The translations under genes and the position numbers were made by a program. This document shows, piece after piece, positions 15,641 to 33,044 of a stretch of DNA of 64,000 nucleotides. The DNA lies in contig NZ_MJUX01000001.1 of the NCBI RefSeq assembly GCF_001927245.1, positions 1,240,001 to 1,304,000 on the forward strand. The letters are read 5' to 3'. Numbering within the stretch: position 1 is the stretch's first letter; each line of letters opens with the position of its first letter. The stretch is from Acuticoccus yangtzensis (GTDB lineage Bacteria; Pseudomonadota; Alphaproteobacteria; Rhizobiales; Amorphaceae). Under the pieces are notes generated by a model. The model saw only the letters and a program-made list of their open reading frames with translations, ran no database searches and was not told where the DNA came from.

Positions 15641-18184
15641 GTGATCGACAAGAGCCTCCTCGAACGCTCCTCGCTGTTCGCCTCGCTGAGCGCCGACGGG
15701 CTGCGCGAACTTGCGCGGGTGGCGACGCTGAGCCACGTCATCGCGCCGGGGGAGATCCTCTTCGACATCGGCGAACCCAGCGACGCGCTGTTCCTCATCA
15801 CCCGGCCACGGCGCGACACCGGCGATGACGCTCCCGTCGCCCGCCTGGAATTTGCCGCGGCGGCCGGTCGGCCCATCCGCGCCGACCATGTCGGCGAGTT
15901 CGGCGTCATCGGCGGTGTCGAACTGCTGCTGGCCGGGCTCGCCCCAAAGCTTCCGCGCCGGTGCACCCGTGCCGTCGCGGTGACACCGCTCGTGGTGGCG
16001 AGGCTACCGGCGCAGACCGTCGCCGCCCTCGGTGAAAGCGATACACAGTTCCGCCGCCTGCTGGTGCGCGAAGGCGCCCGCCGGCTCCTCGATGCGATGC
16101 AGGTCCAGGTTCGCCGCCGCGAGGTCGGGGCGGAGATCGCCCTCGCCGCGCTGCTCGCCGAGGCCGCGGCGACGCACGGAACCTTTCACGGCAACCGGGT
16201 CGAATTCACCCGCAAGACGACACAGGACGAGCTGGCAGACGAGCTGGCGGTCAGCCGCCGGACGGTCGCCGTCCATCTCGCCGAATGGGCGCGCGCAGGG
16301 CTGATCACGACGACACCGCTGGCACTTCTGGACTTCAACCGCATCCGCCTGCTGGCGGACCTGCAGGACGTCGCACCCGCCGACGTGCATCAGGAGGTCG
16401 TCGGCGAGATCGACCATCTGCTCGACGCGGGCGACCTTCTGCGGGCGCGCACGCTCGCCCTCGGCTTTGCGCCGCACTTTTTCGATGCGCCGACGCTGGT
16501 GTTCCGTGCCGCACTTGCCGCGGCCCGTCTCGGCGCCACCAGCGAGGCTGCCGCTCTGCTCGAGCGCGGCGGCTTCGTACCGGGCATGACGGGCGCTGAG
16601 GTGTCGGACCTCGTCCGCGCCGGGCTCAATCGCCTGCGGGACGGCGACGATCAAGACGGGGCCGACGACGACGTCCGTCCGAGGACGGCGTCGGAGCGCC
16701 GACTCGCGACCGACATCGCTGCCCTCCTCGGCCGGCTGGAGAAGGACGGTTTTCGCAAGGCGGCGACGCCGCAGGAGGCACAGGCTCACGCGGTCCGCGC
16801 CGCAGCCGCCTACGCGACCGCGCACGACATCGCCCGCTCCCCCTTCGCCGCCGTCAACAGAGCCACCATGACTCTACTCGCCGGTGACGCACCGACCGCG
16901 GCGCAGCTCGCCCGCCCCTATCTGAGCGACCGTTCGCCGGCCCCCTCCTACTGGTCGGCTGCAACGGCCGCGGAGGCTCTCCTCATCGCCGGCGACAGAG
17001 ACGCGGCACGGCGCGCCTTCGATGCGGCGGCCGGACTGCCCGATTCCACCGATGGAGCACGCGCGACGACCAGGCGCCAGCTCCGGCTCATCGCCCCGGC
17101 GCTGGCGATGGACCCGGACACGCTCGCCGAGTGGATGCCCATCTCCCGACCCGCGGCAGGACTGGGGCACATGATCCGCGCGACGGACGCCGACGCGCCG
17201 ACCCGCGCCGCGACGGCGAAGCGCATCGCGGCCGGCGTCGAGCGCGCGTTCCAAGCCCGCACCATCGGGGCGCTCTACGTCTCGCTGTCCTGCGGCGCCG
17301 ACATCGTGCTGGCGGAGGCGGCCTTGGCCCGCGGCGCCGAGCTTCACGTGGTGCTGCCATTCTCGATCGCCGACTTTCGCGCCGCGTCCGTCGCGATCGG
17401 CGATGCCGAGGGCGAAAGCGACTGGAGCCGGCGCTTCGATGCGTGTCTGGCGAGCGCGGCGACGATCACCATCCTTTATCCGGGAGGCGTGCCGCGTCTC
17501 GGCAAGGATTGGTACTACCGGCAGACCTTTCGCCATTGCGCCGGCCGGGCGCTGGAACGTGCCACCCATCTCGACACCGAACCGCTTCTGATCTCGGTCG
17601 TCGGCGGTGGGGACCGCGAGACGATGGCGAGCAGTTCGCACGGGATGGGCGAATGGGTGGCCCAGGGGCTCGACACCGCCGTGGTGGACTTTCCCCTCAC
17701 CCGGCCGGCCCCCGCCGGTCCGGCCGCCGTGCCGTCCGTCGCAGGAGCCGCCGTCGTCTTCCTCTATCCGGTCGACGATGTCGCCCCGGACGCGGCCAAG
17801 CGGCTGTCGGACGCGCTTGCCGGCCGTTTCGGCGACGCGCTCCAGGTCCGGGCCCTCAAGAGCCGGCGCACCGCCTACACCGTCGTGGTCGCTTCGATCC
17901 GCGAGGTGAGGTCCGTGGTGGAGAAAGCGCGCGAATGTGCCGCGGCGAACGGGGTGACGATGCGGATCGTCTGCGATCACGGCGGCGTCCGCAGGGCCGA
18001 TGGGACGATCATTCACGACCAGCTCACCAGGCTGACCGGAGCGGCGGACGTTCCGGGCGCTCCGGCCGATATGACGCTGGCGACGTCCGCCTACGCGATG
18101 GAGGCGATCTTCACCGATCGGCGGGGCCAGACGCTCGTCCCGGCCGGAGCGGCGAGCGACATCTATGCGCTGACCTGGGACTGA
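15641..18184 (+). CDS. Multidomain regulator: cNMP-binding, Crp-type HTH, helical repeats, SLOG-like domain, degenerate cyclase-like domain
   Basis: 847 residues. Residues about 1-150 resemble a Crp/Fnr cyclic-nucleotide-binding beta-barrel (LERSSLFASLSADGLRELA, and a GEFGVIGGVE...TRAVAV phosphate-cassette-like part). About 195-225 is a Crp-type helix-turn-helix (TQDELADELAVSRRTVAVHL). A helical, TPR-like middle follows. About 515-660 resembles the SLOG/TRAFs-associated Rossmannoid module (SLSCGADIVLAEAALARGAELHVVLPF region, then SDWSRRFDACL). About 700-847 aligns by eye with the class III nucleotide cyclase domain that usually ends this architecture, but the expected metal-binding Asp positions look lost (FLYPVDDVAP in place of FADVVGFS, no clear WGD), so catalysis is doubtful. 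The GTG start has a weak ribosome-binding site. It leads the accessory locus. Confidence 0.75.
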   Translation: MIDKSLLERSSLFASLSADGLRELARVATLSHVIAPGEILFDIGEPSDALFLITRPRRDTGDDAPVARLEFAAAAGRPIRADHVGEFGVIGGVELLLAGLAPKLPRRCTRAVAVTPLVVARLPAQTVAALGESDTQFRRLLVREGARRLLDAMQVQVRRREVGAEIALAALLAEAAATHGTFHGNRVEFTRKTTQDELADELAVSRRTVAVHLAEWARAGLITTTPLALLDFNRIRLLADLQDVAPADVHQEVVGEIDHLLDAGDLLRARTLALGFAPHFFDAPTLVFRAALAAARLGATSEAAALLERGGFVPGMTGAEVSDLVRAGLNRLRDGDDQDGADDDVRPRTASERRLATDIAALLGRLEKDGFRKAATPQEAQAHAVRAAAAYATAHDIARSPFAAVNRATMTLLAGDAPTAAQLARPYLSDRSPAPSYWSAATAAEALLIAGDRDAARRAFDAAAGLPDSTDGARATTRRQLRLIAPALAMDPDTLAEWMPISRPAAGLGHMIRATDADAPTRAATAKRIAAGVERAFQARTIGALYVSLSCGADIVLAEAALARGAELHVVLPFSIADFRAASVAIGDAEGESDWSRRFDACLASAATITILYPGGVPRLGKDWYYRQTFRHCAGRALERATHLDTEPLLISVVGGGDRETMASSSHGMGEWVAQGLDTAVVDFPLTRPAPAGPAAVPSVAGAAVVFLYPVDDVAPDAAKRLSDALAGRFGDALQVRALKSRRTAYTVVVASIREVRSVVEKARECAAANGVTMRIVCDHGGVRRADGTIIHDQLTRLTGAADVPGAPADMTLATSAYAMEAIFTDRRGQTLVPAGAASDIYALTWD

Positions 18185-18439
18185 AGCGAGGCCTGAGCCG
18201 AGGCCTGACGCGGCGCCTGACGTGCGCCGCGGCCCGACAGGCGGTGGAATTTTAAATCATACTTTGCTACCCGGCACGGATAGGTTTTTCGGCCACCCGG
18301 TCGCGGCGCTCCATTTGCGGGCTCGATTTTTGAACGGCGGCCTGCAATGTTTGATTTTAGGCGAGGTGTTATCTTTGACTCGGCCAGCCTCCCACGACAG
18401 TGTTGCCGCACACGGTGCGTTTTCTCGGGATTGACGTCG

Positions 18440-19738
18440 ATGTTTGCCCGGTTGTCCCTGTGCATCGGCCTCGTCGCGGGCCTCGTCGGCCCCGTTCACG
18501 GTCAGGATGCGTCCGAAGCGGACTATCTGGCGGCGGTGCTCAGCCGCCCGTCCGATCCGGAGATATCGTTCCGTTACGCGCGCGCTGCGGCAGGGAACGG
18601 CAACGTTCGCGGTGCGATCGTCGCTCTTGAGCGCATCGTGCTGATGTTCCCGCACCTCGCCAACATCAAGCTCGAACTCGGCATCCTCTATTTCCGCACG
18701 GGGCAGGACGCTCTGGCGCAGCGCATGATCGCCGAAGCGCTCGAGGATCCGGGCGCGCCCGAGGCGGTGAAGGCGCGGGCGCGCGAAATCCTCGCCGCAG
18801 CGGAGAAAAATCAGAGGCGGTGGAGCCTGTCGGGTTACGCGTCCGCCGGGGTCGGCGTCGACAGCAACGCCAATTTCGGTCCGGACGATGGTGCGAGCAC
18901 GGTCAGGGGTACGATCGACCCTTCCGCGGCGGGGCAAGCCGACCTGTCCTTCGTCGGCAGCGGCGGCTTCGGCCTCGCATACGATCTCGGAACGCAGGCC
19001 GGTCATACCGCGGTCCTCAGCGCCGGGTTCTACTCGCGCCGCTACGTGACGCTGAACGATTACGACATGGACGTCGTCACGGGTGCCGCGGGCCTCGATT
19101 TCCGGCTGGACCGGGTTTTCGGCGGACCGAGCATTCTTCAGGTCCGCACCGACGTCATCCAGCTCTGGCGCGACTACGAGTCCTACATGACGGAGATCGG
19201 GCCGTCGGTGCGCCTCACGCTGCCGGCGGGTGCGCGCACGGCCCTCAGCCTCGGCGCATTCGCGCATTATCAGGACTTCCACGCCACCTCGCTCGTACCG
19301 GCCAACGACATTCGCGACGGCGCGATCCTCGGCCTGAGCGGCGAGGTGAGCTATCGCTTCACCGAGCGCACCAGCGGCGGGTTCGTGGTGACGGGATTGC
19401 GCAAACAGGCCGATGCCGCGTTCGAGGCCTTCGGCGAAGTGGCCGCGGGTGTCACCGGACAGCACAGCTTCCTGTCGCCCTTCGGCCAGCCGCAGCCGTG
19501 GACCCTGCAGGCCAACGCCGCGGCCGCTTTGCGCACCTATGACAGCCCCGACAGCGCGATCGACCCGGCGGAGACGCAGGAGGACGTGCGCCTGCGCCTC
19601 GGTCTGGCGCTCAACGTGCCCTTGGGCGACCGTGTCTATCTGACGGCTCAATCGGGGTTGGAAAGCAATATGTCGAACTACGACATCGACAGCTACACCA
19701 ACGTGTTCGGCCTTCTTCTTCTCTCGGCTCGCTTCTGA
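18440..19738 (+). CDS. Slam-like outer-membrane protein: TPR domain plus C-terminal beta-barrel
   Basis: 432 residues. A signal peptide (MFARLSLCIGLVAGLVGPVHG) precedes a TPR region (residues about 30-130: ISFRYARAAAGNGNVRGAIVALERI, IKLELGILYFRTGQDALAQRM). A barrel follows from WSLSGYASAGVGVDSNANFGPD to the last strand, ending in the Phe typical of outer-membrane proteins (LLLLSARF). This order and size match the DUF560/SlipAM (Slam) family, the type XI secretion translocon for TbpB-like proteins. The next gene, 14 bases on, carries a TbpB-like C-terminal domain, which supports the call. The ATG at 18440 is chosen because it begins the signal peptide; an upstream in-frame start would add 31 unlikely residues. 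Confidence 0.72.
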   Translation: MFARLSLCIGLVAGLVGPVHGQDASEADYLAAVLSRPSDPEISFRYARAAAGNGNVRGAIVALERIVLMFPHLANIKLELGILYFRTGQDALAQRMIAEALEDPGAPEAVKARAREILAAAEKNQRRWSLSGYASAGVGVDSNANFGPDDGASTVRGTIDPSAAGQADLSFVGSGGFGLAYDLGTQAGHTAVLSAGFYSRRYVTLNDYDMDVVTGAAGLDFRLDRVFGGPSILQVRTDVIQLWRDYESYMTEIGPSVRLTLPAGARTALSLGAFAHYQDFHATSLVPANDIRDGAILGLSGEVSYRFTERTSGGFVVTGLRKQADAAFEAFGEVAAGVTGQHSFLSPFGQPQPWTLQANAAAALRTYDSPDSAIDPAETQEDVRLRLGLALNVPLGDRVYLTAQSGLESNMSNYDIDSYTNVFGLLLLSARF

Positions 19739-19752
19739 CGCGGCGTGCTGTC

Positions 19753-21675
19753 ATGAGGTCTATGATGCGCCCTTCCGCTCTCGCTGCATGTCTCGTGTGT
19801 GCCATCGGAGCCGCCACGCCCGGCGCGGCCGCCGCGCAGCCGCAGGGCTTCACCGTGCGCCAGCTCAACTATGCGGACGGCACCCGGCAGACCTTCCGCG
19901 CCGGCGAGCGGGAGACCGTCGAGATCCTCTTTCGGGACGGCGCATCCGTCGTACTCGGCCCCGGCGCCGCGACGACGATGCGCCGCGACACGGACGGCCG
20001 CGTCGCGGTGGCGGTCGACGCGGGGATCGTGCGCATCGCAGGTGGTGCCACGAACAGGACCGTTCCCGTCACCATCACCACCCGCGACGCCGCCTTCGCA
20101 TTGACGGACGGCACCGCGATCATCGACGTCTCGCCCGCCGGGACGCGGGCGCATCTGTTCAACGGGGAGACGCTGGTCGCTTCCAAGGACGGCGTGACCA
20201 AAACGCTCTACCGGCCAGGTTTCCAGGTCGTCGCGGACGCTAACCGCCTCATGGGTCCTCGCCGGATGGCGCGCAGCCTCCTGCTCGACGACCTCTACCG
20301 GCTCGGCCCGGAGCTGAGGAGCGACGCCGGGGGCGCGGCCGCGCCGAGCCTCGTCGGCCAGATGAAGGTCGTCCCCCTGATCGGTCCGGGCGGCGGCGGT
20401 CTTCGATCTGCCCTCGTCGTGTGCTCCGGCGCCGCGGGGGACGATGGAGCCGGGCCGGTCTCCTGCGTGGAGGCGCAGCAGGACGAGGCCACGGCCGATG
20501 CCGCGCTCGAGGCCGCGCTGGCCGATCCCGCCTTTGCGCTCACCGATCTCGGCGGCGCGTCGGTGTCCACTGTCGGCCTGCCGCTCACGGTCCAGGCGAA
20601 CAGCTACTTCGCGTCGATCCTCAACCAGTTGTCGCGGCAGGTGCTGGAAACGGCGGACGGCGGGAGTACGCCGCCGACGGACACAATCGTCGCGGCGCTG
20701 GACATCGTCGCGCCCTACCCCGGCGTGGAGCTGACGCGCCGCACCATCGACGATCTCATCGCCCGAACACGGCCGGAGCTGCAGGCGCCCTACGGCGGTC
20801 CGCCGATCCCCGACATCGTCGGCTATGCCCGCGGGCTGAGCGCCACGGTCAGCGGCGGCGAGGCGGCGACCTACGCTCTGCTTTCGACCGCCGACGAGAG
20901 GCAGTCCAATTTCGCCTTCTTCAACGCCAACCCGCTGACGCGCGGCTTCGAGGCCTCGATCGAATTTCAAGAGTTCTCCCAGTCGATCACCCAGCAGGAC
21001 GACAGCGCCTTCCAAAACGCCGCCGTGTTCGCCGGATCCAGCAAGGGGCGCCCTTCGCTGGAGGTGGCATCGGGACCGGCGGTCGCCGCTGACGCGCAGC
21101 GCAGCGGCAGCGCCGCCCCCTCGCCGGCACCGCGGGACTACGAGCACCTGCGGTGGGGAACCTTCATCGGCCTCGAGCGGAACGAGGAGGGCGGGGTGAA
21201 GGTCGAGCGGGGCTACTCGGGGAGCTTCGCCGCGGGTCGGCCGCTGAGCGAGGAGGAGATCGCCGTCGTCGACCAGGCCCGGCGCGATACGACCGCGACG
21301 GTCACCTACGACGGCCACGTCATCGGCGACGTGATCGACGGCAACGTGGTGCGCGGCAATGTCGTCGGCACCTATTCCGACGACTTCGACTTCGCCGCGC
21401 GGCGAGGGCGCGTCACTGTCGACTTCGACCGGCGCACCTATACCGGGCGCAGTCGCGGTTTCCCGCAATATAACGCGACACTGCGGGCAACGGGGGCGGG
21501 AGGGATCACCGGACGTGCGCAAGGGACCTTCGTCGGCCCTCTCGTCAGCGCGACGAGCGACCGGCTCGACACTCCGGCCGGCATCGTGGGGGGCTTCAAG
21601 CTCTCCTCGCCCGACACGGCGGCGCGCAGCTACCGCGCGACGGGAACCTTCGCCGCGGAGGTGCAGCGGCGCTGA
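19753..21675 (+). CDS. Secreted FecR-domain protein with TbpB-like C-terminal beta domain
   Basis: 640 residues. The N-terminal export signal ends near AAAAQPQG; an LAAC lipobox-like motif occurs at residues 10-13 but leaves a very short hydrophobic part, so lipidation is uncertain. Residues about 55-190 resemble the FecR domain (VEILFRDGASVVLGPGA, VAVDAGIVRIAGG, RAHLFNGETLV). The middle is unrecognised. Residues about 515-640 resemble the TbpB-like beta-barrel of type XI substrates (ATVTYDGHVIGDV, GRVTVDFDRRTYTG, AQGTFVGPL, IVGGFKL, YRATGTFAAE). It is 14 bases behind the Slam-like gene. No ECF sigma factor, the usual FecR partner, is nearby, so FecR here may be a surface sensing or binding module. 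Confidence 0.72.
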   Translation: MRSMMRPSALAACLVCAIGAATPGAAAAQPQGFTVRQLNYADGTRQTFRAGERETVEILFRDGASVVLGPGAATTMRRDTDGRVAVAVDAGIVRIAGGATNRTVPVTITTRDAAFALTDGTAIIDVSPAGTRAHLFNGETLVASKDGVTKTLYRPGFQVVADANRLMGPRRMARSLLLDDLYRLGPELRSDAGGAAAPSLVGQMKVVPLIGPGGGGLRSALVVCSGAAGDDGAGPVSCVEAQQDEATADAALEAALADPAFALTDLGGASVSTVGLPLTVQANSYFASILNQLSRQVLETADGGSTPPTDTIVAALDIVAPYPGVELTRRTIDDLIARTRPELQAPYGGPPIPDIVGYARGLSATVSGGEAATYALLSTADERQSNFAFFNANPLTRGFEASIEFQEFSQSITQQDDSAFQNAAVFAGSSKGRPSLEVASGPAVAADAQRSGSAAPSPAPRDYEHLRWGTFIGLERNEEGGVKVERGYSGSFAAGRPLSEEEIAVVDQARRDTTATVTYDGHVIGDVIDGNVVRGNVVGTYSDDFDFAARRGRVTVDFDRRTYTGRSRGFPQYNATLRATGAGGITGRAQGTFVGPLVSATSDRLDTPAGIVGGFKLSSPDTAARSYRATGTFAAEVQRR

Positions 21676-21713
21676 GGCGGTCCGCATCGGCCGAAATCGC
21701 CCGCCGCCCCGGC

Positions 21714-21733
21714 GGGGCAGCTTTTGCCGCCCC
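21714..21733 (+). terminator. Possible hairpin terminator after the FecR gene
   Basis: GGGGC pairs with GCCCC, with one mismatch and a further GC/GC pair around a TTTT loop. It lies 38 bases after the FecR stop. There is no T-run after the stem, so a terminator role is weak; it may only mark the end of the FecR transcript. Confidence 0.25.
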
Positions 21734-21841
21734 GGACCCCGCCAGCCTTATCACGGGGGCGTCGTTGAGCCATAGTGAAGCCGATGTCACTCGCGGGATG
21801 AAACGAACGCACTGCCCCGGCAATCGGGGCTCCACCCCTGC

Positions 21842-23401
21842 ATGACGAAGGCCGTGACGGCGATGGCGTATACACCGGGCTACGAATACGACGTCTTCGT
21901 CAGCTACGCGTCCGTGGATGACTTCAACCTCATCGACGACGGCGACGGCTGGATCACCGAACTCGTCGAGCTTCTGGACAGGATGATCCGCAGCCGCCTC
22001 GGTGGCGGCGACGACCTCACGATCTACTTCGACCGTCATCGGCTGGCGAGCAATCACGGCCTGTCGACCCTGCTGGACGCCGTGCGCCAGTCGGCGACGT
22101 TCTTCGCCGTGGCGTCGAGCGCCTACAATCAACGGGAGTGGACGCAGCGGGAGATCGCCGAATTCTGCCGGCAGCCGGACTACAGCAACCGGCTGTTCGC
22201 CATCGAATATCTGCCTCTCCTGCCCGGCGAGCAGTATCATTCGATCCTTGAGAGCCGCAAACGTCTCGCCTTCTGGGAGCGTGACAGCGCCTTCAACGTC
22301 GAGCAGACGCTGGTGCGCGGCTCGGCCACCTACCGCGCGCGCTGCACCCAGGTGGCACAGCAGATCGCGACGCAGCTTTTCGCCATGCGCTTCGGCGGCG
22401 GCGCCGCGGCCGCACCGTCGGCTGGGACACAGGAGCGCGATCCGGCGACGCCGCTTGGCCGTCCTTCCGCCGCTCTCGCCCCCGCCGGCCCAGCCCAAGC
22501 CGCTCTCGCCCCCGCCGCGGCAGCGACCGCGCCCGCGGCGGTGCCTGCGCCGCGCCCGCAGGCCGTCCGCCTCGTCGTGGGGCAGACCGCCGCCGACATG
22601 GAAGACGACGCCGAACGTCTCAAGGCCTTCTTCGCGGATCTCGGCTACGACGTCACCTACCTGTCGGAGATGCGCCAGGGTGGACGGGACTTCAAAGCCG
22701 ACGCCGCCGAGGCGATGGAGGGCGCGACGCTCTTCGTTCTGCCGATCGGCGCCCATCCCGGCCGGCGGCCGAAGGATCTGCCGGAAGGTTACTATGCCGC
22801 CCAGCTCGACGTCGCACGCGACTGCGCCACGCCCACGATGGTCTGGCGCCGGCCCGACGTCACCGGCGCGAACACCACCGTGCCGGAGCACGCCGCGCTG
22901 ATCGACGACGATACGGTGATCGCCGCCACCTATCCCGGTTTCGTCAATCAGGTCCGGTATCTGCTGGAGGCGGCGGCACGGGCCATGTCGGCCTCGGCCA
23001 AACCCGCATCGGGCTATATCTTCATCAACGCGGACCAGTCCGACCGGGCGGCGGCGGAGCATTTGCAGGACGTCTTCGTGACGATCGGCCAGGACACCGC
23101 CGTGCCGATCTACGACGCCTCGCCGCACGAATTGCGCGAGGACCTGATCGAGCGGCTGAGCGACTGTGACACGCTGCTGCTCCTCTACGGCGAAGTCGGC
23201 CTGCGTTGGGTGCGTGCGCAACTGTCGATGCTGAGCAAGATGCGCCCGCACATGAGCGCGCGGATCAAGGCGGTCTGCATCGGCCCGCCCGCGGGCAAGT
23301 CCAGCAACCTCGGCTTCCGCTCGCCCGACCTCGAGATCCTCGACCTCAATCCGGACTGGCAGCACAGCCCGATCGTGGATCTCGTGAACAGGTCTTCATG
23401 A
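21842..23401 (+). CDS. TIR-domain protein with two further TIR-like domains
   Basis: 519 residues. Residues about 15-185 form a TIR domain: YDVFVSYASVDDFN begins strand A, IYFDRHRLASNHGLSTLL is the BB-loop region, and SSAYNQREWTQREIAEF holds the conserved Glu found in TIR NAD hydrolases. A Pro/Ala linker (about 200-240) follows. Residues about 242-395 (VRLVVGQTAADMEDDAERL) and 400-519 (GYIFINADQSDRAAAEHLQ, CDTLLLLYG) look like two more flavodoxin-type TIR-like units. It may start at ATG 21842 or 21863. No signal peptide, so cytoplasmic. Its stop overlaps the nSTAND1 start by four bases, a strong sign that the two act together. NADase activity is inferred, not shown. Confidence 0.83.
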   Translation: MTKAVTAMAYTPGYEYDVFVSYASVDDFNLIDDGDGWITELVELLDRMIRSRLGGGDDLTIYFDRHRLASNHGLSTLLDAVRQSATFFAVASSAYNQREWTQREIAEFCRQPDYSNRLFAIEYLPLLPGEQYHSILESRKRLAFWERDSAFNVEQTLVRGSATYRARCTQVAQQIATQLFAMRFGGGAAAAPSAGTQERDPATPLGRPSAALAPAGPAQAALAPAAAATAPAAVPAPRPQAVRLVVGQTAADMEDDAERLKAFFADLGYDVTYLSEMRQGGRDFKADAAEAMEGATLFVLPIGAHPGRRPKDLPEGYYAAQLDVARDCATPTMVWRRPDVTGANTTVPEHAALIDDDTVIAATYPGFVNQVRYLLEAAARAMSASAKPASGYIFINADQSDRAAAEHLQDVFVTIGQDTAVPIYDASPHELREDLIERLSDCDTLLLLYGEVGLRWVRAQLSMLSKMRPHMSARIKAVCIGPPAGKSSNLGFRSPDLEILDLNPDWQHSPIVDLVNRSS

Positions 23402-26400
23402 CCAGCGCGGACCGGCTCCCCTATCCGGGCCTGCGCGCCTACTCCCGAGACGAAACCGACCTTTTCTTCGGACGCGAGCGAACGACCGACGCGATGGTCG
23501 AGCGGCTCGCGGCGACACGGTTTCTGGCGGTCCTCGGCCCGTCGGGAAGCGGCAAATCGTCCCTCGTGCGGACCGGGCTTCTCGACGCGCTCGACCTCGG
23601 CCTCTACGCCGCGGCCGGCTCGGACTGGCGTGTGGCGGACTTCTCGCCCGGCGTCTCGCCGCTCACAAACCTCGCCCGTGCCGTCGCCCATTCCGGCGAC
23701 GCGCCCGCCGACGCGCTCGACGTCGAGGCCCTCCTCGCCGAGATCGAGCACAGCCCCTTCGGGCTCGTCCGGTGGGCCAACGGGGGGCACCTGCGCCGCG
23801 GCCAGAACCTTCTGCTCCTCGTCGACCAGTTCGAAGAGCTGTTCCGCTACAGCGACTATAGTGCGCGCGAGGAGGCCGAGGCTTTCGTCAACCTCCTGCT
23901 TGAGAGCGCGAGGGGCGACGCGCCCATTCATGTGGTCCTCACGATGCGGTCCGAATTCCTCGGCGCCTGCGCACTGTTGCCAGGCCTCGCCGAACGCATC
24001 AACGAGAGCCTCTACCTCATCGGGCGCATGACGCGCGAAGAGTGCCGCGCGGCGATCGAGGGGCCGGCGGGGGTGCTGGGGTTCGACGTCGAGACCGCGC
24101 TGGTCAGCCGGCTTCTAAACGATCTCGCCGCCTTCGCGCCGTGGGATGCGAAGGAAGAGGTCTCGCAACTGGAGCACCTCTCGCGCCAGGCCGATCAGCT
24201 TCCACTGATGCAGCACGTCCTCAACTGGTTGTGGATGCGCCAGGCGGGGGGCGACAAGCCGATCACGCTGACGCTTGCCGGCTACCAGGAGATCGGCGGC
24301 CTGCGCGGGGCGCTGGACCAGCACGGCGAGAAGATCCTGGCCGAGCTCGGCGAACGGCCGGGAGGCGATTGGATCCAGGTCGTCGAACCGCTCATGCGCG
24401 GCCTCGTCACGGGCACCAGCCTGGAGAGCGCCGTCCGCCGGCCCGCGCGGCTGGACGAGCTCGTCGCCCTCACGGGGCGCACCGAAGAGGAGTTGCGCAC
24501 CGTCATCGAGGCGTTTCGGGCGCCGCACTCCAGCTTCCTGCGCCCGGACCCCTCCGTGCCGCTGGGCGGCGCCACGATCGTCGACATCACCCACGAGAGC
24601 CTGGTCCGCCAGTGGTCGCGCCTCGCCGAGTGGCACCGGGCCGAAACGCTCGACGGCGAGCGATGGCGCCAGCTCGCGGCCGAGGCGGAGGCTCATGCCG
24701 CCGGGACGGCCGATCTCTTGTCGGAGACCAACCTCGCCGCCGCCTCGGAATGGCTCGATCGGGTGGGGCCGACGGCGCCATGGGCGGACCGTCACGGCGG
24801 GCGTTTCGCGACGGTCCACGCCTTCCTCAGGGCGAGCCGCGAGGCGATCGCCGCCGCGCACGAGGAGGAGCTGAAGCGACGGCGCCGGATGCGGCGATTG
24901 CGCGACGGTCTGGTCGCAGCGCTCACGGTGCTCCTGGTCGTCGTCACCGGAGCCTCGGTCTGGCTCTACCGGGCCAACCGGGAGAAGGACCGGCTGAACG
25001 ACGCCTTGTTCGACACGAATGTCCGCCTGACCGCGCTGAACCGCACCCTCGGCGACTTCAAGACGCGCTCGGTGGCGCTCGTGACCGACTTCGCCACGAC
25101 CATGGCCGAGGTGCAGGACGCGGCGGTCCTCGGGTTCAGCCGCTACGAGGAGAAGCTTTCCAACCTCATCGCGCCTTTTCAGGCCTACACGCTGAGCCAG
25201 GCCGCCGAGCGCCTGACGCCGGCGCAGATCATGCACTTCCGGCTGACCTACGGGCAGACGCTGGAGCGGCTGGGCGAGGACGACCGCTCCGTCGCCGTCA
25301 TCGCCGAGGCGTTCGAGCTGGCGCGCGAGGAGGCCGCGCGCGGGCGAGGTCAACTCGGCCCGGGCGCCCTGGTGCCCTTCTTCCAGGTCGTCACCGCCCA
25401 TAGCTGGAACCTGATGAACGCCGGGGACTATGCGGGCGCCGATGCCGCGCTCGACCTCTCCGAGGAGGTTCTTGCCCGCCTCGAAGACGTGGCGGAGGCG
25501 CCGCTCGCCGACGCCGTCGCGGGTGCGCTCTTCGCCCGCTCACGCTGGCACGACGAATCCACGACCGGCGACAGCGACGCGGCGCTTGCCGCGCTGCGCC
25601 GCGCCGCAACGTTCGAGGAACGCGCCCTCGCCGCCGATCCGGAAAATCAGGTCTTCCGGACGCGGGCGATGACCTATCGGCGCAACTTCGCGGGCCGCGC
25701 CCGTCAAGCGGCCGACGCCTTGCCGCCGGACGATCCGCAACAGAGCGCCCTGCGTCTCGCAGCCACGAACGCGGAGGAGGCGCTGTGCCTGGAGGCCGAT
25801 GGGCTGGTCGCGGCGGTCCCGCTCATGGCCGCCACCATCGGCTCGACCTTCGCCCACTGCACCGTCGTCGCCACGCGCCGGCTGACCGCGGACGGAGACA
25901 TCGCCGAGGCGCGCCAGGTGCTGGAACGCGCGCTCGGGCTCTTCGACATGCTTCTCGCATCCGATCCGGACCTCGCCCCGCTCCAGTTCGCCAAGCTCCA
26001 GCTTCTTCAGCAGCGGGTCGCGATCGAGCGTTCTTCCAGCGGCTCGAACGCCGCCTTGGCAGACGCCGGGCGAGCGCTCGCCGCTCACTGGTTGGCGCTG
26101 CTCGGCGAGGGCAGCCGGCTCACCGCCGACGTCTTCCGGTTCGAACAGGCGCTCCGCTCGATCGTCGACGCCTTGTCGGGCGAGGCGACGAGCGCGGCGC
26201 AGCGGGTCACCTTCTATCGCGCAGCGCTGGATGCCGTGGGCCGCACCCTCGCGGCGAGGCCGGACGGCCCGTCCTTCCGCCGCATGGACGCGATGACCGC
26301 CGCGCAGCTTGCCGCGGCGCTGGAAGGCGAGGACGCCGGCGAGAACGAGCAAGCCGCGCTCCACCGGCGCGTGATCGCGGACCACGAGGCCCTCGGGACC

Positions 26401-27588
26401 TTCCGCTCGGTGGACGAACCGTCGGAAGGGGTGGCTGAGGCGTGCGAAGCCTATGCCGGGATGATCCGGCTCCACGCCAGCGCCAAGCGCGTCGATGCCG
26501 CGCGGGAGGCGCTGGCGACCATGGCCGCACGCTGCGCGCCGGTCCTCGCGCGGTTCCCGTGGGACGTTCGACTGCGCCGGGCGCTGGACGGGGCCCGGAC
26601 GACGGTCGGTGCTCTGCTCTTCGAACGCGGGCGCTACGACGAGGCGAGGCCGGAGCTGGAGGCCGCGAGCCACGCCGGGGAACGCCTCGCGACCCGGTTC
26701 CTGGCGCAAATGGCGCGCCTCGGCCTCGGCGTACCGCGTGACGCGGACCGCGCGGCGACGCTCGACGCACAGGCGGAGCGCCAGCGTATCAAGCACCTGT
26801 CGATCCCCGTGTCGGTCGCGGGTCTCGTCTATGATGTGGACGTGGACCTTCACCAACGGCCGGACGATTTTCCCTATCGCGGCATCGGCGATCACGTCGT
26901 CATGCTGAAGACCTTCCGCGGCGCCGAGGTCGTCGGCGACACCGCCGCCCGTCTCGCAGAGGTCGATCGCCTCGCGCGCGAACGGGGCGTGTCCTTCCCG
27001 GCCATGGCGCGCGCTCTGGCGCAGGGCGACGAGCCGCGTCTCGTCTCGCCGGCAGACCCGCTGCCCCAGCCGGGCGAGGCCGACGCGCAGACGGCAGGAC
27101 AAACCATCGCCGAAGCGCGGACGGCCGCGCGGTCCGGCGCGTTCGAGGAGAGCCTGCGCCTGCTCGATGAGGCGCTGAAACGTGGCGCGGCGGCACACGA
27201 GGAGACGCGGGACGATCTCGTCACCGCCTACGGCAGCCTCGCCGGCCTCGCGCTCCGTTCGGACGCCTTCAGCCTCGCGCGGACTGCGGCCGAAGCCGCG
27301 CTAGCGCTCGATTCCGAGGCGACATGGGTCGAAGTCAACCGCGCCGTGGCCCTCATGCGTCTCGGCAACGTGGAGGAGGCGCGCGCGATCTTCATGCGGA
27401 ACCGGGGACGACTTCTTCTCGGCGGGGCGCTCTTGTGGGACCGTGCGGTGCTCGAAGAGTTCTCCGACCTTCGGGCGCGCGGTGTCGACGTTCCGCCGAT
27501 GGCGGAGATCACGGCCCTGTTCAGCCAGGCCCTGCCCGACCTGCCCAACTTAGCTGACCAGCCCGGCGCTGCGCCGACACCGCCCTGA
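23398..27588 (+). CDS. Membrane-anchored nSTAND1-type NTPase with C-terminal helical/TPR solenoid
   Basis: 1396 residues. The start YPGLRAYSRDETDLFFGRE is the nSTAND1 signature (YPGLRxFxxxxxxxFFGR). Walker A is GPSGSGKSS near residue 47, Walker B LLLLVDQFEELF near 140-150, and QADQLPLMQHVLNWLW is the conserved helical-third segment. One membrane helix (about 503-523, LVAALTVLLVVVTGASVWLY) separates the NTPase from about 870 residues of TPR-like alpha-solenoid without WD40 repeats. STAND NTPases are signalling switches that oligomerise on sensing a ligand with their repeats. By the positive-inside pattern (RRRRMRRLRD before the helix) the NTPase should be cytoplasmic and the solenoid periplasmic. 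It overlaps the TIR gene by four bases. Confidence 0.83.
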   Translation: MTSADRLPYPGLRAYSRDETDLFFGRERTTDAMVERLAATRFLAVLGPSGSGKSSLVRTGLLDALDLGLYAAAGSDWRVADFSPGVSPLTNLARAVAHSGDAPADALDVEALLAEIEHSPFGLVRWANGGHLRRGQNLLLLVDQFEELFRYSDYSAREEAEAFVNLLLESARGDAPIHVVLTMRSEFLGACALLPGLAERINESLYLIGRMTREECRAAIEGPAGVLGFDVETALVSRLLNDLAAFAPWDAKEEVSQLEHLSRQADQLPLMQHVLNWLWMRQAGGDKPITLTLAGYQEIGGLRGALDQHGEKILAELGERPGGDWIQVVEPLMRGLVTGTSLESAVRRPARLDELVALTGRTEEELRTVIEAFRAPHSSFLRPDPSVPLGGATIVDITHESLVRQWSRLAEWHRAETLDGERWRQLAAEAEAHAAGTADLLSETNLAAASEWLDRVGPTAPWADRHGGRFATVHAFLRASREAIAAAHEEELKRRRRMRRLRDGLVAALTVLLVVVTGASVWLYRANREKDRLNDALFDTNVRLTALNRTLGDFKTRSVALVTDFATTMAEVQDAAVLGFSRYEEKLSNLIAPFQAYTLSQAAERLTPAQIMHFRLTYGQTLERLGEDDRSVAVIAEAFELAREEAARGRGQLGPGALVPFFQVVTAHSWNLMNAGDYAGADAALDLSEEVLARLEDVAEAPLADAVAGALFARSRWHDESTTGDSDAALAALRRAATFEERALAADPENQVFRTRAMTYRRNFAGRARQAADALPPDDPQQSALRLAATNAEEALCLEADGLVAAVPLMAATIGSTFAHCTVVATRRLTADGDIAEARQVLERALGLFDMLLASDPDLAPLQFAKLQLLQQRVAIERSSSGSNAALADAGRALAAHWLALLGEGSRLTADVFRFEQALRSIVDALSGEATSAAQRVTFYRAALDAVGRTLAARPDGPSFRRMDAMTAAQLAAALEGEDAGENEQAALHRRVIADHEALGTFRSVDEPSEGVAEACEAYAGMIRLHASAKRVDAAREALATMAARCAPVLARFPWDVRLRRALDGARTTVGALLFERGRYDEARPELEAASHAGERLATRFLAQMARLGLGVPRDADRAATLDAQAERQRIKHLSIPVSVAGLVYDVDVDLHQRPDDFPYRGIGDHVVMLKTFRGAEVVGDTAARLAEVDRLARERGVSFPAMARALAQGDEPRLVSPADPLPQPGEADAQTAGQTIAEARTAARSGAFEESLRLLDEALKRGAAAHEETRDDLVTAYGSLAGLALRSDAFSLARTAAEAALALDSEATWVEVNRAVALMRLGNVEEARAIFMRNRGRLLLGGALLWDRAVLEEFSDLRARGVDVPPMAEITALFSQALPDLPNLADQPGAAPTPP

Positions 27589-27620: not shown

Positions 27621-27696
27621 TCCCCGGTTGCGCCGCCCGGGTGGCGACAGTACCACCTCTAGATCGATATGTTTTTGTGTTGAGGGGATTGGGCGG

Positions 27697-29595
27697 ATGG
27701 CAACGTTGGGAACCGTCGCGGATCGCCTGGTCAGCGGATACTGGTCACTCACGGACGAGACCACGCGCTGGTTCCAAGAGGACCGCCTCGAATACAACAT
27801 CACCGGCTACCGCGTCGGCAACCAGTCCGACACCAACGGCCTTCTTCCCGTCCGCCAGGCGCAAGTCCAGAACGTCATGTCCTATTATGACGCGCTGTTC
27901 GGCGACATCGCCTTTCAGCAGACGACCTCGTCCAAGGCGCGTACGACGGACGTGTTCTTCAGCGATGGTCCGGGCAATGTCGCGGCGTCCACCCTGCCGC
28001 GGCTGAAGGGTGAGAGCGTCCTCTACGCGTTCACCAACGTCCCGCGCGACTTCAGCCGGACGCTCGACGAAGAGCCGGCGCCGGGGGCGACCCTGTCCGA
28101 CGTCGACAAGTACCACTACCAGACCTTCCTGCACGAGGTGTTGCACGTTCTCGGCCTCGGCGAGACCATGGTGGCCGGACGGCCTGGAACCCGGCTCGAC
28201 AACGACAGCTGGGACGTGTCGATCATGTCCTACGTCGACCAGTTGCAGAACCCGGCCGACGATGGAGCGACCTCGCGCCTCTACCTGCTGACCCCGCGCC
28301 AGGCGGACTTTCTGGCACTCGAGCGATATTACGACCTCAGCGCCGCGTTCGACGGACCCACCGTCTACGGCCGCGCCGATAGCGGCGGCGATTTGCCCTG
28401 GTCGCTGGACAATCTCGCCACGCTGATCTCCGAAGCCGCCTTCACGATCTACGACGCCGGGGGGCGGGATCATCTGAAGTTCGACTATGCCCTCTCCTAT
28501 CAGCAGCGCATCGATCTCACGATCGTCAACGGCACGATGACGGAGACGCATGCGTCCGACATCGCCGGGCAGAAGGGCAACCTGTCGCTGGCGGTCGGCA
28601 CCGTGATCGAGGACGCCACCGGCGGCGCCGGGCGCGATACGATCATCGGCAACAGGGTGAACAACCGCCTCGACGGCAACGCCGGCGACGATGCGCTGTT
28701 CGGCAAGAGCGGCCACGACAGGCTTCTCGGCGGCGACGGGAGCGACACACTGAGGGGCGGTCCCGGCAACGACACCCTCGTCGGAGGGGCCGACCGCGAC
28801 TTCCTGTTCGCCGGCATCGGCGACGATCGGCTCGTCGGTCAGAGCGGCGACGACAGCCTGCTGGGCAGCAACGGCGACGATACGGTGTTCGGCAATCTCG
28901 GCGACGACACGCTGGTCGGCGGCTTCGCAGACGACCGCGTCATCGGCGGCCGGCACGACGACGCCCTGTTCGGCGACCTCCAGGACTTCCTCCTCAACGG
29001 CAGACTGTCCCCGGCCGAGATCCGCCAACGTTCCGGCGCGGACTGGCTGGACGGCGGCGGAGGAAACGACACGCTCGACGGCGGTTCAGGGGACGACACG
29101 CTGATCGGCGGGCGCGGCCACGACAGCATGAACGGCGGTCTGGGCGCCGACAGCCTCACCGGGGGCAGCGGCGACGATACGCTGGACGGTGGGCGCAACG
29201 CCGACACCCTGTCCGCCGGCGAGGGCAACGACGTGCTCCGCGGCGGGCTCGGCGCGGACGTGATCCATCTCGGCGCGGGGACAGACCGCATCGTCCTCGG
29301 CCTTGCTGGAACCGACGTGGTGTTCGGCTTCGTCAACGGCGAGGATCGTCTCGACCTGACCGACGTGGATGCCGATCCGCGAACCGAAGAGTTCGATGCC
29401 TTCACGTTCGTCGGCCGCTCGCAGATCCCCGGCCTCGGCGAGCTCACCTATCGGATCGACCTGACGGACCCGCAGACGGGCGGCCCCGTCGTCACCATCA
29501 TCGGCAACACCGACCTCGATCCGCAGACTGCGGAAGTCGAAGTCCGCCTGATCGGGCTGAACGCGCTCGACGAAGACGCCTTCATCCTCGTCTGA
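27697..29595 (+). CDS. Serralysin-like (M10) RTX metalloprotease with altered zinc motif
   Basis: 632 residues without a Sec signal. The N-terminal half resembles serralysins: a metzincin zinc motif HEVLHVLGLGE at residues 146-156 and a Met-turn SIMSY (Met177). The third zinc ligand, normally His, is Glu156, an unusual substitution. The second half (about 325-525) is RTX nonapeptide repeats (GGxGxDxLx) that bind calcium and direct type I secretion through an uncleaved C-terminal signal. The ATG at 27697 follows GAGGGG; the preceding bases are T-rich and may hold its promoter. No type I exporter is encoded in the window. Secreted protease is likely; activity with Glu at the third position is uncertain. 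Confidence 0.83.
   Translation: MATLGTVADRLVSGYWSLTDETTRWFQEDRLEYNITGYRVGNQSDTNGLLPVRQAQVQNVMSYYDALFGDIAFQQTTSSKARTTDVFFSDGPGNVAASTLPRLKGESVLYAFTNVPRDFSRTLDEEPAPGATLSDVDKYHYQTFLHEVLHVLGLGETMVAGRPGTRLDNDSWDVSIMSYVDQLQNPADDGATSRLYLLTPRQADFLALERYYDLSAAFDGPTVYGRADSGGDLPWSLDNLATLISEAAFTIYDAGGRDHLKFDYALSYQQRIDLTIVNGTMTETHASDIAGQKGNLSLAVGTVIEDATGGAGRDTIIGNRVNNRLDGNAGDDALFGKSGHDRLLGGDGSDTLRGGPGNDTLVGGADRDFLFAGIGDDRLVGQSGDDSLLGSNGDDTVFGNLGDDTLVGGFADDRVIGGRHDDALFGDLQDFLLNGRLSPAEIRQRSGADWLDGGGGNDTLDGGSGDDTLIGGRGHDSMNGGLGADSLTGGSGDDTLDGGRNADTLSAGEGNDVLRGGLGADVIHLGAGTDRIVLGLAGTDVVFGFVNGEDRLDLTDVDADPRTEEFDAFTFVGRSQIPGLGELTYRIDLTDPQTGGPVVTIIGNTDLDPQTAEVEVRLIGLNALDEDAFILV
28674..29280 (+). repeat. RTX nonapeptide-coding repeats (metalloprotease)
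   Basis: Roughly twenty imperfect 27-base units coding GGxGxDxLx-type nonapeptides (for example GGDGSDTLR, GGPGNDTLV, GGSGDDTLD), in two blocks split by a non-repetitive stretch around 28980-29040. They form calcium-binding beta-rolls. Confidence 0.85.
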
Positions 29596-30672: not shown

Positions 30673-30941
30673 TCCGCGGGCCCGGGTGCGGTCTGCGCGC
30701 GACGGCCCGTCCGCCGCTGCTCCGCGATGGGGTCTCGCCGCGCTCCGGTCCCTCTCACCTGCGCCGGTCCGGCCGCGCCCTGAAGGCGCCCGCCGCACAC
30801 AGGGAAGCAGCAGCCTTCGGCCGTGCGCGCTGACGTTGACCAGCCCTTGCGCCCCGGTCCCGCCACGCGGGGCCGCCGCCTCGCTGCCATGAATGGCGCG
30901 CGGCTTTGCCGATGATGCACCCCGTCAAAGAGCATTCTTCC

Positions 30942-33044
30942 ATGAATATCATCAACATATCCTTCGACGATCTGGCCTACTGGATCGGTGCCGCCTCGAT
31001 ATTCACGGATCGGGTCGTCACCCCGAATCTGGACCGCATGGCCGACCTCGGCACCTCCTTCACCAACGCCTACACGCCGGTCGCCCTGTGCAGCCCGGCG
31101 CGCACGGCAGCCCTGTCCGGCCAGGCCCCGGTGACGACCGGAGTCTTCACCAATCAGGAGAGCTGGCGCAGCGGCGTCGCGCCGGAGGACACCCTGCCGG
31201 GAACGTTCCTGCAGAACGGCTTTCACGTCGCGTCCTACGGCAAGGTCTTTCATCAGAAGGACATTGCGCCGGATCTCGGCGCCAAGCTCTTCAGCGAATA
31301 CACGACGGTGATCGGCTATCGCGGCGGCGAACCCGCCGGAAGCGAAATCGAACCGATGCCGGACGCGTTCACCGACGAGATGGCGGACAATATCACTGCC
31401 GACAATTCCATCGCCTTCCTGGAGCGATACGACGGTGACGCGCCGTTCATGCTGAACGTCGGGTTCGTCAAACCCCACAAGAGCTTCACCGTTCCCGAGC
31501 GGTTCTATGATCTCTACCCGATCGAGTCGATCGACACGCCCGGCGAGGGGGCGGACGATCTGGCGGGCATTCCCGCCGCCGTGCTCGAGGATCTGAAATA
31601 CCGCGGCTGGCATCCCAAACCGGACACGCCGGAGTCGTGGAAGGAGTATGTGCGCGCCTATCTCGCCACCGTGACCTACGTGGATTGGGAGCTCGGCCGC
31701 GTGCTCGACGCCGTCGAGCGGACGGGCCATGCCCAGGACACCGTGATCGCCCTGTGGAGCGATCACGGCTACCACCTCGGCGACCGCGACGACCGGTGGG
31801 GCAAGTTCACGCTTTGGGAGGAGGCGGCGAAAATCCCCTTCATCTTCGCCGTGCCGGGGGTCACGAAAGGCGGTGAGACGGTCGATCAGGTGGTCAGCCT
31901 CCTCGACCTCTTCCCGACCCTTCTCGACGCCGCAGGTCTCGACATTCCCGGCCGGCTCGAGGGGGAGAGCCTGATGCCCTTCCTTGCCGATCCCGATTTT
32001 TCGCAGGATCGCGCGGTGTTCACCTGGATGGGCGACAGCGTGATGATCCGCACGCAGACCTACAGCTACATCTCTTATGCGGACGGGACCGAAGAGCTCT
32101 ACGACATGGTCGGCGACATGGAGCAGAACCGGAACCTCGCCGATGTCCCGGCGCATCAGGAAACCGTCGGCGCGCTATGGCAGCGCCTGATCGAGGCCTA
32201 TGGCGACGCCCCGCTCAGCAGCACGTTCGACGACGAGAGCGCGGCCCTCGGCCCCCTCGTTCGGGGCGGTGCGGATGACGATCGCATGGTGCTCGGCGGT
32301 GGGGACGACCATGCGGCGGGGCGGGCCGGGGACGATACCATCCGCGGCGGAGCCGGTGACGATTCGATCGCCGGCAATGCCGGTTCGGATCTCGTCGACG
32401 GCGGTCCGGGCGGCGACACGCTGCAGGGCGGCAACCAGCACGATACCCTGTTGGGCCGACAGGGCGACGACCGGCTGCACGGCGGGCGCGGCAACGACCG
32501 GCTGGTCGCCCACGCGGGCGACGATGCGATCTACGGCGACAGCGGAAGAGACAGCATCTGGGGCGGCAAAGGGGCCGACTTCGTTCTCGCCGGCCGGCAC
32601 GACGACGTGGTCAATGGCGGCAGCGGCCGGGACACCCTCAGCGGCGAACGCGGCAACGATCAGCTCAACGGCGGGGGCTGGGCCGACAGCCTCTACGGCG
32701 GGGCGGGCGACGATACGTTACGTGGCGGCGATCACCGCGACACCCTGGTGGGGAACAGCGGCGACGACAGTCTGATCGGGGGCCACGGGTCCGACATCCT
32801 GCTGCCGGGCGGCGGGAGCGACACGCTGATATTCGAAGGACGGTTCGGCAACGACACCGTGGCCGGGTTCGATGCTGCCGACGACACGATCGAGATCCGC
32901 GGTGCGAGCCTTGACGACGTCGCGATCCAGACGACGGCCGAGGGCACGCTCCTGACGGTGTCGGGCAACGCGACCGGCACGATCATGCTCGAAGGCGTCT
33001 TCGCGTTCGATCCCGCCACGATAGTCGACGACGTCATCCTCTGA
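30942..33044 (+). CDS. Sulfatase fused to C-terminal RTX repeats (predicted type I-secreted)
   Basis: 700 residues. It starts MNIINISFDDLAYW, an alkaline-phosphatase-fold start with metal-binding Asp residues. The sulfatase signature Cys50-Ser-Pro-Ala-Arg54 supplies the cysteine converted to formylglycine. WSDHGYHLGDRDDRWGK and DLFPTLLDAAGL match iduronate-2-sulfatase/choline-sulfatase relatives. From about residue 440 RTX repeats take over to a C-terminal region with hydrophobic ending, as in type I secretion substrates. No Sec signal is present. The ATG at 30942 has AAAGAG upstream; upstream ATG/TTG choices would add 10-12 residues. A formylglycine-generating enzyme and exporter must lie elsewhere. 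A secreted enzyme for sulfated polysaccharides is likely. Confidence 0.87.
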   Translation: MNIINISFDDLAYWIGAASIFTDRVVTPNLDRMADLGTSFTNAYTPVALCSPARTAALSGQAPVTTGVFTNQESWRSGVAPEDTLPGTFLQNGFHVASYGKVFHQKDIAPDLGAKLFSEYTTVIGYRGGEPAGSEIEPMPDAFTDEMADNITADNSIAFLERYDGDAPFMLNVGFVKPHKSFTVPERFYDLYPIESIDTPGEGADDLAGIPAAVLEDLKYRGWHPKPDTPESWKEYVRAYLATVTYVDWELGRVLDAVERTGHAQDTVIALWSDHGYHLGDRDDRWGKFTLWEEAAKIPFIFAVPGVTKGGETVDQVVSLLDLFPTLLDAAGLDIPGRLEGESLMPFLADPDFSQDRAVFTWMGDSVMIRTQTYSYISYADGTEELYDMVGDMEQNRNLADVPAHQETVGALWQRLIEAYGDAPLSSTFDDESAALGPLVRGGADDDRMVLGGGDDHAAGRAGDDTIRGGAGDDSIAGNAGSDLVDGGPGGDTLQGGNQHDTLLGRQGDDRLHGGRGNDRLVAHAGDDAIYGDSGRDSIWGGKGADFVLAGRHDDVVNGGSGRDTLSGERGNDQLNGGGWADSLYGGAGDDTLRGGDHRDTLVGNSGDDSLIGGHGSDILLPGGGSDTLIFEGRFGNDTVAGFDAADDTIEIRGASLDDVAIQTTAEGTLLTVSGNATGTIMLEGVFAFDPATIVDDVIL
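32262..32830 (+). repeat. RTX nonapeptide-coding repeats (sulfatase)
   Basis: About twenty imperfect 27-base units coding motifs such as GGAGDDSIA, GNAGSDLVD, GGRGNDRLV and GGAGDDTLR. They follow the catalytic part of the sulfatase and predict a calcium-binding beta-roll and type I export. Confidence 0.85.

Follow-up and report, generated by a model that had tools for sequence, protein, structure and literature searches.

We analyzed a block of five genes, A to E, in a 64,000-nucleotide stretch of the Acuticoccus yangtzensis genome (contig NZ_MJUX01000001.1, positions 1,240,001 to 1,304,000 of the forward strand; hereafter the window), which had been predicted from its letters alone to form one signalling or conflict system. 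All five genes lie on the plus strand, between positions 15641 and 27588, and a re-check of coordinates and open frames confirmed this arrangement. The genes and their features are as follows.

15641..18184, plus strand: gene A, 847 amino acids; CRP-type N-terminal region with a helix-turn-helix (HTH), TPR-S, SLOG-like alpha/beta domain and degenerate cyclase homology domain.
16142..16342, plus strand: Crp-type HTH of A (residues 168-234), above the Pfam cut-off for HTH_Crp_2.
16616..16870, plus strand: TPR-S (ASK1-type sensor TPR) of A (residues 326-410), above the Pfam cut-off; the family profile matches MAP3K5 chains.
17126..17710, plus strand: SLOG-like domain of A (residues 496-690), with an invariant GxDxxxxE motif and profile matches beside D-E genes.
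17744..18181, plus strand: degenerate cyclase homology domain of A (residues 702-847), from Foldseek; signature motifs missing.
18347..19738, plus strand: gene B, Slam-like TPR and barrel-type protein, with a likely start at 18440, as in genome G606; separate module.
19753..21675, plus strand: gene C, FecR-type protein and likely partner of B, with an N-terminus resembling a signal peptide by eye; separate module.
21842..23401, plus strand: gene D, intact TIR domain (predicted catalytic Glu104) followed by a DUF4062-like and a third TIR-like domain, both lacking the Glu.
23398..27588, plus strand: gene E, nSTAND1 NTPase, membrane segment and TPR-containing C-terminal region; ATGA overlap with D.
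24910..24966, plus strand: predicted transmembrane segment of E (residues 505-523), from a hydropathy scan.

As called, gaps of 162 and 166 nucleotides separate A from B and C from D, respectively. The stop codon of D and the ATG of E at 23398 share four nucleotides (ATGA), and the junction is of the same kind in G606, a congener. A mechanical open reading frame call had placed the start of E at 23206; we rejected this start in favor of 23398, where a coupled start is likely. A scan for promoters and terminators returned signals no better than those in shuffled sequences.

D and E form a conserved two-gene cassette, a pairing so strongly supported that we regard it as nearly certain. A D-family profile search of species-representative genomes gave 112 confirmed loci, of which the best 80 were kept, and in 74 of these 80 an nSTAND1 gene lies directly downstream of D on the same strand. 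The remainder comprise one fusion of D with E, four loci cut by a contig end and one locus without nSTAND1 within the 1.5 kb available. Records of the cassette come from Proteobacteria, Acidobacteria, Verrucomicrobia, Bacteroidetes, Cyanobacteria and others. Among 150 sampled genomes of the order, the window's own included, D relatives were present in 4 and E relatives in 14, and all three D relatives outside the window directly precede an E relative. The D family is nonetheless sparse, as it was found at 1e-10 in only 2 of 385 genomes of a class-level sample, the window's own genome being one of them. In L094 and L097 the pair is directly followed by an additional, weaker nSTAND1 gene, and in L101 (6253-9297) it has a tubulin-like gene (Tubulin_2) upstream.

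The D protein matches TIR_2 at 47 bits (Pfam cut-off, 28) and is the only TIR_2 match in the whole genome at an E-value of 0.001 or better. It has no Pfam match to ThsB_TIR, and its score against the NCBIfam model FxsC_Nterm is 25 bits, below the cut-off of 130. In an alignment of 65 family members (63 of the 80 loci, the window and G606), Glu104 of the first TIR domain is present in all 65 and Trp100 in 59. A structure model of D, computed from 55 of the 65 aligned rows (mean predicted local distance difference test score [pLDDT], 85.8), folds into three TIR-like alpha/beta units, the first of which is followed by a disordered linker. Foldseek matches of the model in the PDB include TIR domains from MyD88, SARM1 and AbTir, with modest E-values (best, 2e-4). 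Domain 2 matches DUF4062 in Pfam in two relatives, though not in window D. At the helix position equivalent to the catalytic Glu, as judged from the order of secondary structure elements, domain 2 carries Gln in 60 of 65 members, window D among them, and domain 3 carries Gln or Lys in 49 of 65. Because Glu104 is invariant and Gln or Lys occupies the equivalent positions of domains 2 and 3, D probably comprises one active and two inactive TIR-like domains, and we predict it to be a probable TIR NADase (an enzyme cleaving nicotinamide adenine dinucleotide [NAD]). The three TIR domains originally assigned to D are therefore reduced to one intact TIR, the other two being degenerate TIR-like domains in both alignment and model.

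The E protein matches nSTAND1 (PF20703) at 304.7 bits against a Pfam cut-off of 27.1 and also contains TPRs. Together with the four-nucleotide overlap with D and the single hydrophobic segment found at residues 505-523 by the hydropathy scan, this match bears out the overlapping nSTAND1 NTPase with a membrane helix that had been proposed. We scored 73 nSTAND1 partners of D for hydropathy, 6 of which were too short to judge. A hydrophobic segment follows the NTPase in 56 of the 67 judgeable proteins, beginning at residues 479-521 in 52 of the 56; of the 11 without one, 8 have a weaker segment in that region. Lys and Arg are denser on the NTPase side in 43 of 52 partners with a single segment which, as a rule of thumb, suggests a topology with the NTPase inside and the C-terminus outside. 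E may thus have an extracytoplasmic part of its own.

Gene A had been described as a cyclic nucleotide-binding (cNMP)/HTH/SLOG/cyclase-like regulator. Its Crp-type HTH is present (HTH_Crp_2, 31.2 bits; Pfam cut-off, 27), as it is in the A relatives of locus L085 and genome G593, and the protein also matches TPR-S (PF20308; 30.5 bits against a cut-off of 27.6). The A-family profile matches MAP3K5 chains over the TPR-S region (E-values, 2.7e-5 and 8.7e-5), a sequence resemblance between this bacterial TPR-S/SLOG-like/cyclase family and the TPR region of human ASK1. The next domain carries a GxDxxxxE motif, invariant in 25 of 25 aligned rows, which we take to be that of SLOG; we call the domain SLOG-like on the combination of this motif, an alpha/beta fold that was predicted with moderate confidence, and shared profiles. 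Foldseek matches of the A model (predicted from 6 of the 25 aligned rows) include the Rv1900c cyclase domain (E-value, 5.7e-3), and the cyclase-like C-terminus of window A lacks both the cyclase signature motifs and both aligned metal-binding Asp positions. The HTH of the earlier description thus holds and TPR-S can be added to it, but its cyclase part is degenerate.

We consider it likely that A belongs with D-E. In a metagenome-assembled genome (MAG) of the Rhizobiaceae (locus L085), a full-length CRP-type relative of A (866 amino acids, 32% identity) lies divergently adjacent to D-E; it has the same Crp HTH and a TPR-S below cut-off, trypsin-type and kinase genes lie beyond it, and the 21-kb locus contains no match to B-C. 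In genome G641, 3.6 kb separate E from a downstream gene for a SLOG-like/degenerate-cyclase protein, which overlaps a kinase gene and has SLATT-type and FHA-trypsin genes nearby. The A proteins of the window, G606, L085 and G641 form one clade (support, 1.000), and all four are encoded near D-E. Each of the four has lost at least one of the two cyclase metal-Asp positions (both in the window, the second in G606 and L085, the first in G641), whereas both positions are retained in 19 of the 21 other family members.

Searching the genomes of 50 of the 80 D loci (48 genomes), we found an A-family match at 1e-10 in 21 of 48, weak cyclase-only matches included, and one of at least 90 bits in 13 of 48. 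In 7 of these 13 genomes the strong match lies within about 10 kb of D-E, against about 0.07 expected from genome length by our arithmetic. As a rough yardstick only, since the taxa differ, 13 of 297 genomes of the order, the window's own included, have an A match at 1e-20. Three modules (A, B-C and D-E) without mutual relation, grouped by chance, would agree with the intergenic gaps at A|B and C|D and with the finding that A-family genes of the order sample lie mostly away from D-E; however, a full-length A beside D-E in L085, the four-member clade found near D-E in every case, and a linkage well above expectation make such a grouping already unlikely for A with D-E, and we regard it as very improbable overall.

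Next to D-E, the SLOG-like domain is found repeatedly and with more than one kind of output. For this comparison we used only a profile built without members from the 80 D loci, because an earlier profile had been iterated with its own hits. It gave strong matches in loci L085, L089, L109, L135 and L138 and no significant match in 24 control loci (380 kb). Weak matches were obtained for proteins of L086, L122 and L095 (independent E-values, 3.6e-5, 2.7e-4 and 7.3e-4), which we take to be SLOG-type; L093, joined only through a single-linkage BLAST group and missed by the profile, and L101 (independent E-value, 0.21) were not counted. The outputs joined to the SLOG-like domain are a Crp HTH in L085, a cyclase in L135, a cyclase and RyR in L089 and, probably, a SLATT-type two-transmembrane module in L122, where DUF4231 and SLATT_1 score below cut-off. 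L095 also contains a separate TrkA_N-RyR gene.

Two further A-family loci have TIR genes as neighbors. In L073 (789-8938, genome G037), a TPR-S/SLOG-like/cyclase gene adjoins a TIR gene and an nSTAND1-like gene similar to E whose product reads by eye as TIR-nSTAND1-WD40, another grouping of TIR, STAND and SLOG-like domains, made up of different parts. In L186 (9605-14454, G593), a CRP-type relative of A in three overlapping frames, representing an assembly error or a decayed gene, adjoins a TIR-TPR gene with similarity to ThsB_TIR, and G593 has no D relative at 1e-5.

B and C, by comparison, look like a separate surface-protein module that became a neighbor of A. TPRs were found in B by the Pfam scan, but SlipAM (PF04575) was not; it appears in 6 of a mixed set of 43 B- and C-type proteins, so that the Slam label comes from relatives of B. 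In C, FecR scores 18 bits, below the cut-off of 24, and the Pfam scan found no TbpB-type barrel domain; in the same set of 43, FecR was found in 20 and TbpB_B_D in 2. The C-terminus of C is similar to the TbpB-type part of a paralogue in its own genome, in which TbpB is itself under cut-off (E-value, 0.0014). PDB sequence searches with B and C alone gave TPR matches at best for B and nothing for C.

We compared 24 B loci, consisting of G606 and 23 of 29 places, the window's own and 5 weak or broken ones being left out. A C-type gene immediately adjoins B in 18 of the 22 loci with a called B gene, is separated from it by one gene in 2 and is missing in 2. A gene of the CHASE2-cyclase type is present in 9 of the 24, and D-E in 1 of the 24, G606. 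Conversely, the B and C profiles gave no match in the 80 D-family loci. The window's own genome has a second Slam-like/FecR-TbpB pair (L083, contig C12, about 105-112 kb), divergent from a CHASE2-cyclase gene. B-C is possibly a target of A.

In G606 the five genes stand in the same order and are followed by the same RTX genes, with identities to the window of 78% (A), 81% (B), 81% (C), 87% (D) and 84% (E). All five were found together only in these two genomes; six other members of the genus have no A at 1e-20 and no D at 1e-5. The sugar ABC transporter operon upstream of window A lies on another contig in G606 and is also present in G131, in both cases without the block. As the block is absent from six congeners and its upstream flank differs, A to E seem to be accessory within the genus. 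Since the five families were not found together elsewhere and B-C has a neighborhood of its own, the idea of a five-gene system fails and a three-gene core of A, D and E survives: the proposed union of a surface arm with a TIR/SLOG arm holds for A, D and E, which recur together outside the genus, and not for the Slam and FecR/TbpB pair. We accordingly rejected a single five-gene system, in which C, exported by B, would serve A-D-E as sensor arm or as output. It would explain why the gene order and the downstream RTX genes are kept in G606 at 78-87% identity though the upstream flank differs, but the absence of B and C from the 80 D-family loci, the restriction of D-E to G606 among the 24 B-type loci and the second B-C pair beside a CHASE2-cyclase gene render it improbable.

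Directly after E lies a gene for an RTX protein with an M10-type C-terminal domain (27628-29595), likewise after E in G606. An M10-RTX gene also directly precedes D-E in genome G113 (L067), possibly by coincidence, as these genomes are RTX-rich. Further downstream in the window, positions 30906-33044 encode a Sulfatase fused to RTX repeats, of which G606 has two close copies, one adjoining the A-E block and the other near the far end of the same contig.

Certain families are enriched among the nearest neighbors of D-E. We compared 107 near genes (of 189 eligible; 108 were selected within a limit on residues, mostly the immediate neighbor, and one nSTAND1 fragment was dropped) with 107 distant control genes of the same loci (of 147 eligible; 128 selected). 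In Pfam, the near set contained Trypsin_2 in 7, DUF4231 in 6 and SLATT_1, TPR-S and FHA in 4 each; each of these families was found in at most 2 of the 107 distant genes. Several of the Trypsin and FHA neighbors come from closely related MAGs of the Bauldia type.

Published work places both nSTAND1 and TIR among the components of conflict systems (PMC8195603, PMC7159879, PMC10907252). It also describes DUF4062 proteins as NADases that provide phage defence (PMC13174449), ThsA SIR2-SLOG effectors as activated by isomers of cyclic ADP-ribose (cADPR) (PMC11204291), RyR-domain proteins as binding or cleaving 2'/3'cADPR (PMC13232231), and SLATT proteins and SLOG-HTH fusions as predicted outputs under regulation by ADP-ribose (PMC9503650). 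We propose that A, D and E make up an NAD-based signalling system with D-E as its conserved core, and we put the probability of the whole signal flow at about 0.45. In this proposal E would be a STAND switch in the inner membrane, with a cytoplasmic NTPase and a large TPR-containing C-terminus that is probably outside. The outer part would sense a ligand or envelope damage, upon which the NTPase would oligomerize and cluster D. The intact TIR of D would then cleave NAD+ to an ADP-ribose-type product, with the degenerate TIR-like domains serving in assembly or binding. In the present lineage, that product would bind to the SLOG-like domain of A, and the TPR-S and degenerate cyclase domains would relay the signal to the CRP-type DNA-binding region and so change transcription. 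In other lineages, cyclases, SLATT-type membrane proteins, RyR proteins, trypsin-like proteases and kinases may be the outputs near the same core. Observation covers the pairing of D with E, the recurrence of A-type proteins beside the pair, the conserved catalytic Glu and the hydrophobic segment, whereas we infer the ligand, the topology, the product, the transcriptional output and the direction of flow, from an outer signal through E and D to A, on the basis of the literature cited together with domain anatomy.

A number of observations weigh against this proposal. Within A, the cNMP_binding match is weak (E-value, 0.17 in Pfam, compared with 31.6 bits against a cut-off of 27.5 in the G593 relative), the CRP part of the model is poor (mean pLDDT, 63), and neither the Pfam scan nor a PDB search with the SLOG-like profile gave a sequence match for the SLOG label. 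Comparison of the SLOG-like profile with the D family likewise returned nothing. The E partner in L085 has a hydrophobic segment scoring 1.74, under the threshold of 1.9. Regarding linkage, 6 of the 13 strong A matches were not placed near D-E, in part owing to fragmented assemblies; a TPR-S/SLOG-like gene of more than 100 bits lies within the locus in 5 of 80 D-E loci; and in the order sample, most A-family genes, L073 excepted, have no D or E relative in the fetched region. Most D-E loci thus have no A-type gene nearby, and A is therefore optional. L109, L135 and L138 are all from Verrucomicrobia and possibly not independent. Searches with tblastn found no match to D in 72,556 plasmids (E-value, 1e-8) or 50,697 phage records (1e-6), and none to A in the same plasmids (1e-8). 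PADLOC 2.0.0 gave weak matches only, the best being PDC-S66 for D (2.7e-4) and mad8 for E (2.8e-6), and PADLOC families are not richer among D-E neighbors than among distant genes (68 versus 113). Because of this lack of enrichment, the setting of D-E is that of nucleotide-signal conflict systems and not of classic defence islands.

The last results also bear on an alternative in which D-E is an abortive-infection pair: E would sense phage or envelope damage, D would kill by depleting NAD+, in the manner of Swarozyc or other TIR/STAND defence, and A would regulate expression of the locus without reading any signal. An intact TIR, a STAND partner, the antiphage NADases of the related DUF4062 type described in passages of PMC13174449, and trypsin, SLATT and kinase neighbors typical of conflict systems all agree with this alternative. 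However, neither PADLOC enrichment nor carriage on plasmids or phages was found in the searches above, and a SLOG-like domain found next to D-E in combination with various outputs is more in keeping with a reader than with a simple repressor. We judge abortive infection to be possible, if on the unlikely side.

Returning to the signalling proposal, a bolder version of it would be that a TIR-made, NAD-derived messenger, controlled by an outward-facing membrane STAND protein, directly governs transcription via a SLOG-CRP factor rather than killing the cell, and that other lineages have re-wired the core by exchanging the output attached to the SLOG-like reader. This version is speculative, and we would sooner bet against it. 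If it were true, bacterial TIR signalling would not be a suicide switch only, a transcription factor would read an NAD-derived signal, and the neighboring surface and RTX exoprotein genes would be example targets of TIR-driven expression. The D-E cassette is in any case a compact, testable target, as it is widespread, while window D and E stay under every NCBIfam cut-off and their PADLOC scores are weak.

Finally, we compared the locus with known systems. A literature search, based mostly on passages and on main texts only, found no description of the D-E cassette or of the architecture of A; the D-E pair is apparently both widespread and undescribed. B-C resembles the translocon and cargo of Type XI secretion (Slam/DUF560; passages of PMC12282271 and PMC8406197), but its cargo has a FecR domain and CHASE2-cyclases lie near some B-C loci. 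FecR and adenylate or guanylate cyclase have zero occurrences in the main text of PMC8406197, as do FecR and cyclase in that of PMC12282271. With the nucleotide-centred conflict systems built on SLOG, SLATT and RyR (PMC9503650), the D-E neighborhood has a domain vocabulary in common; the passages of that paper contained no description of the D-E cassette or of the A architecture. STAND/NLR-like conflict systems (nSTAND1, EACC1 and TIR-AP-ATPase/FxsC; passages of PMC8195603 and PMC7159879) likewise combine a STAND NTPase, a TIR effector and a variable C-terminal part, but here the TIR is encoded by its own gene upstream, together with two additional TIR-like domains, and a membrane segment follows the STAND module.

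Swarozyc, as presented in passages of PMC13174449, shares with D a TIR-superfamily protein with a DUF4062-type domain. It consists of a protein with DUF4062 and auxiliary domains and has its catalytic Glu in DUF4062, whereas in D a canonical TIR precedes the DUF4062-like domain and the partner is nSTAND1; neither the term nSTAND nor the term AP-ATPase appears in that text. We rejected membership of Swarozyc on the Gln that replaces Glu in the DUF4062-like domain of window D and of 60 of 65 members, with the equivalence drawn from the order of secondary structure. Membership of Thoeris was rejected as well, as the Pfam scan of A to E and four flanking proteins gave no SIR2 or macro match. The likeness to Thoeris is that the NAD-derived product of a TIR enzyme would be read by a SLOG-type domain. 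The reader here, however, would be a CRP-type DNA-binding protein with TPR-S and a degenerate cyclase domain in place of a SIR2 effector, and the TIR protein is coupled to a putative membrane STAND NTPase.

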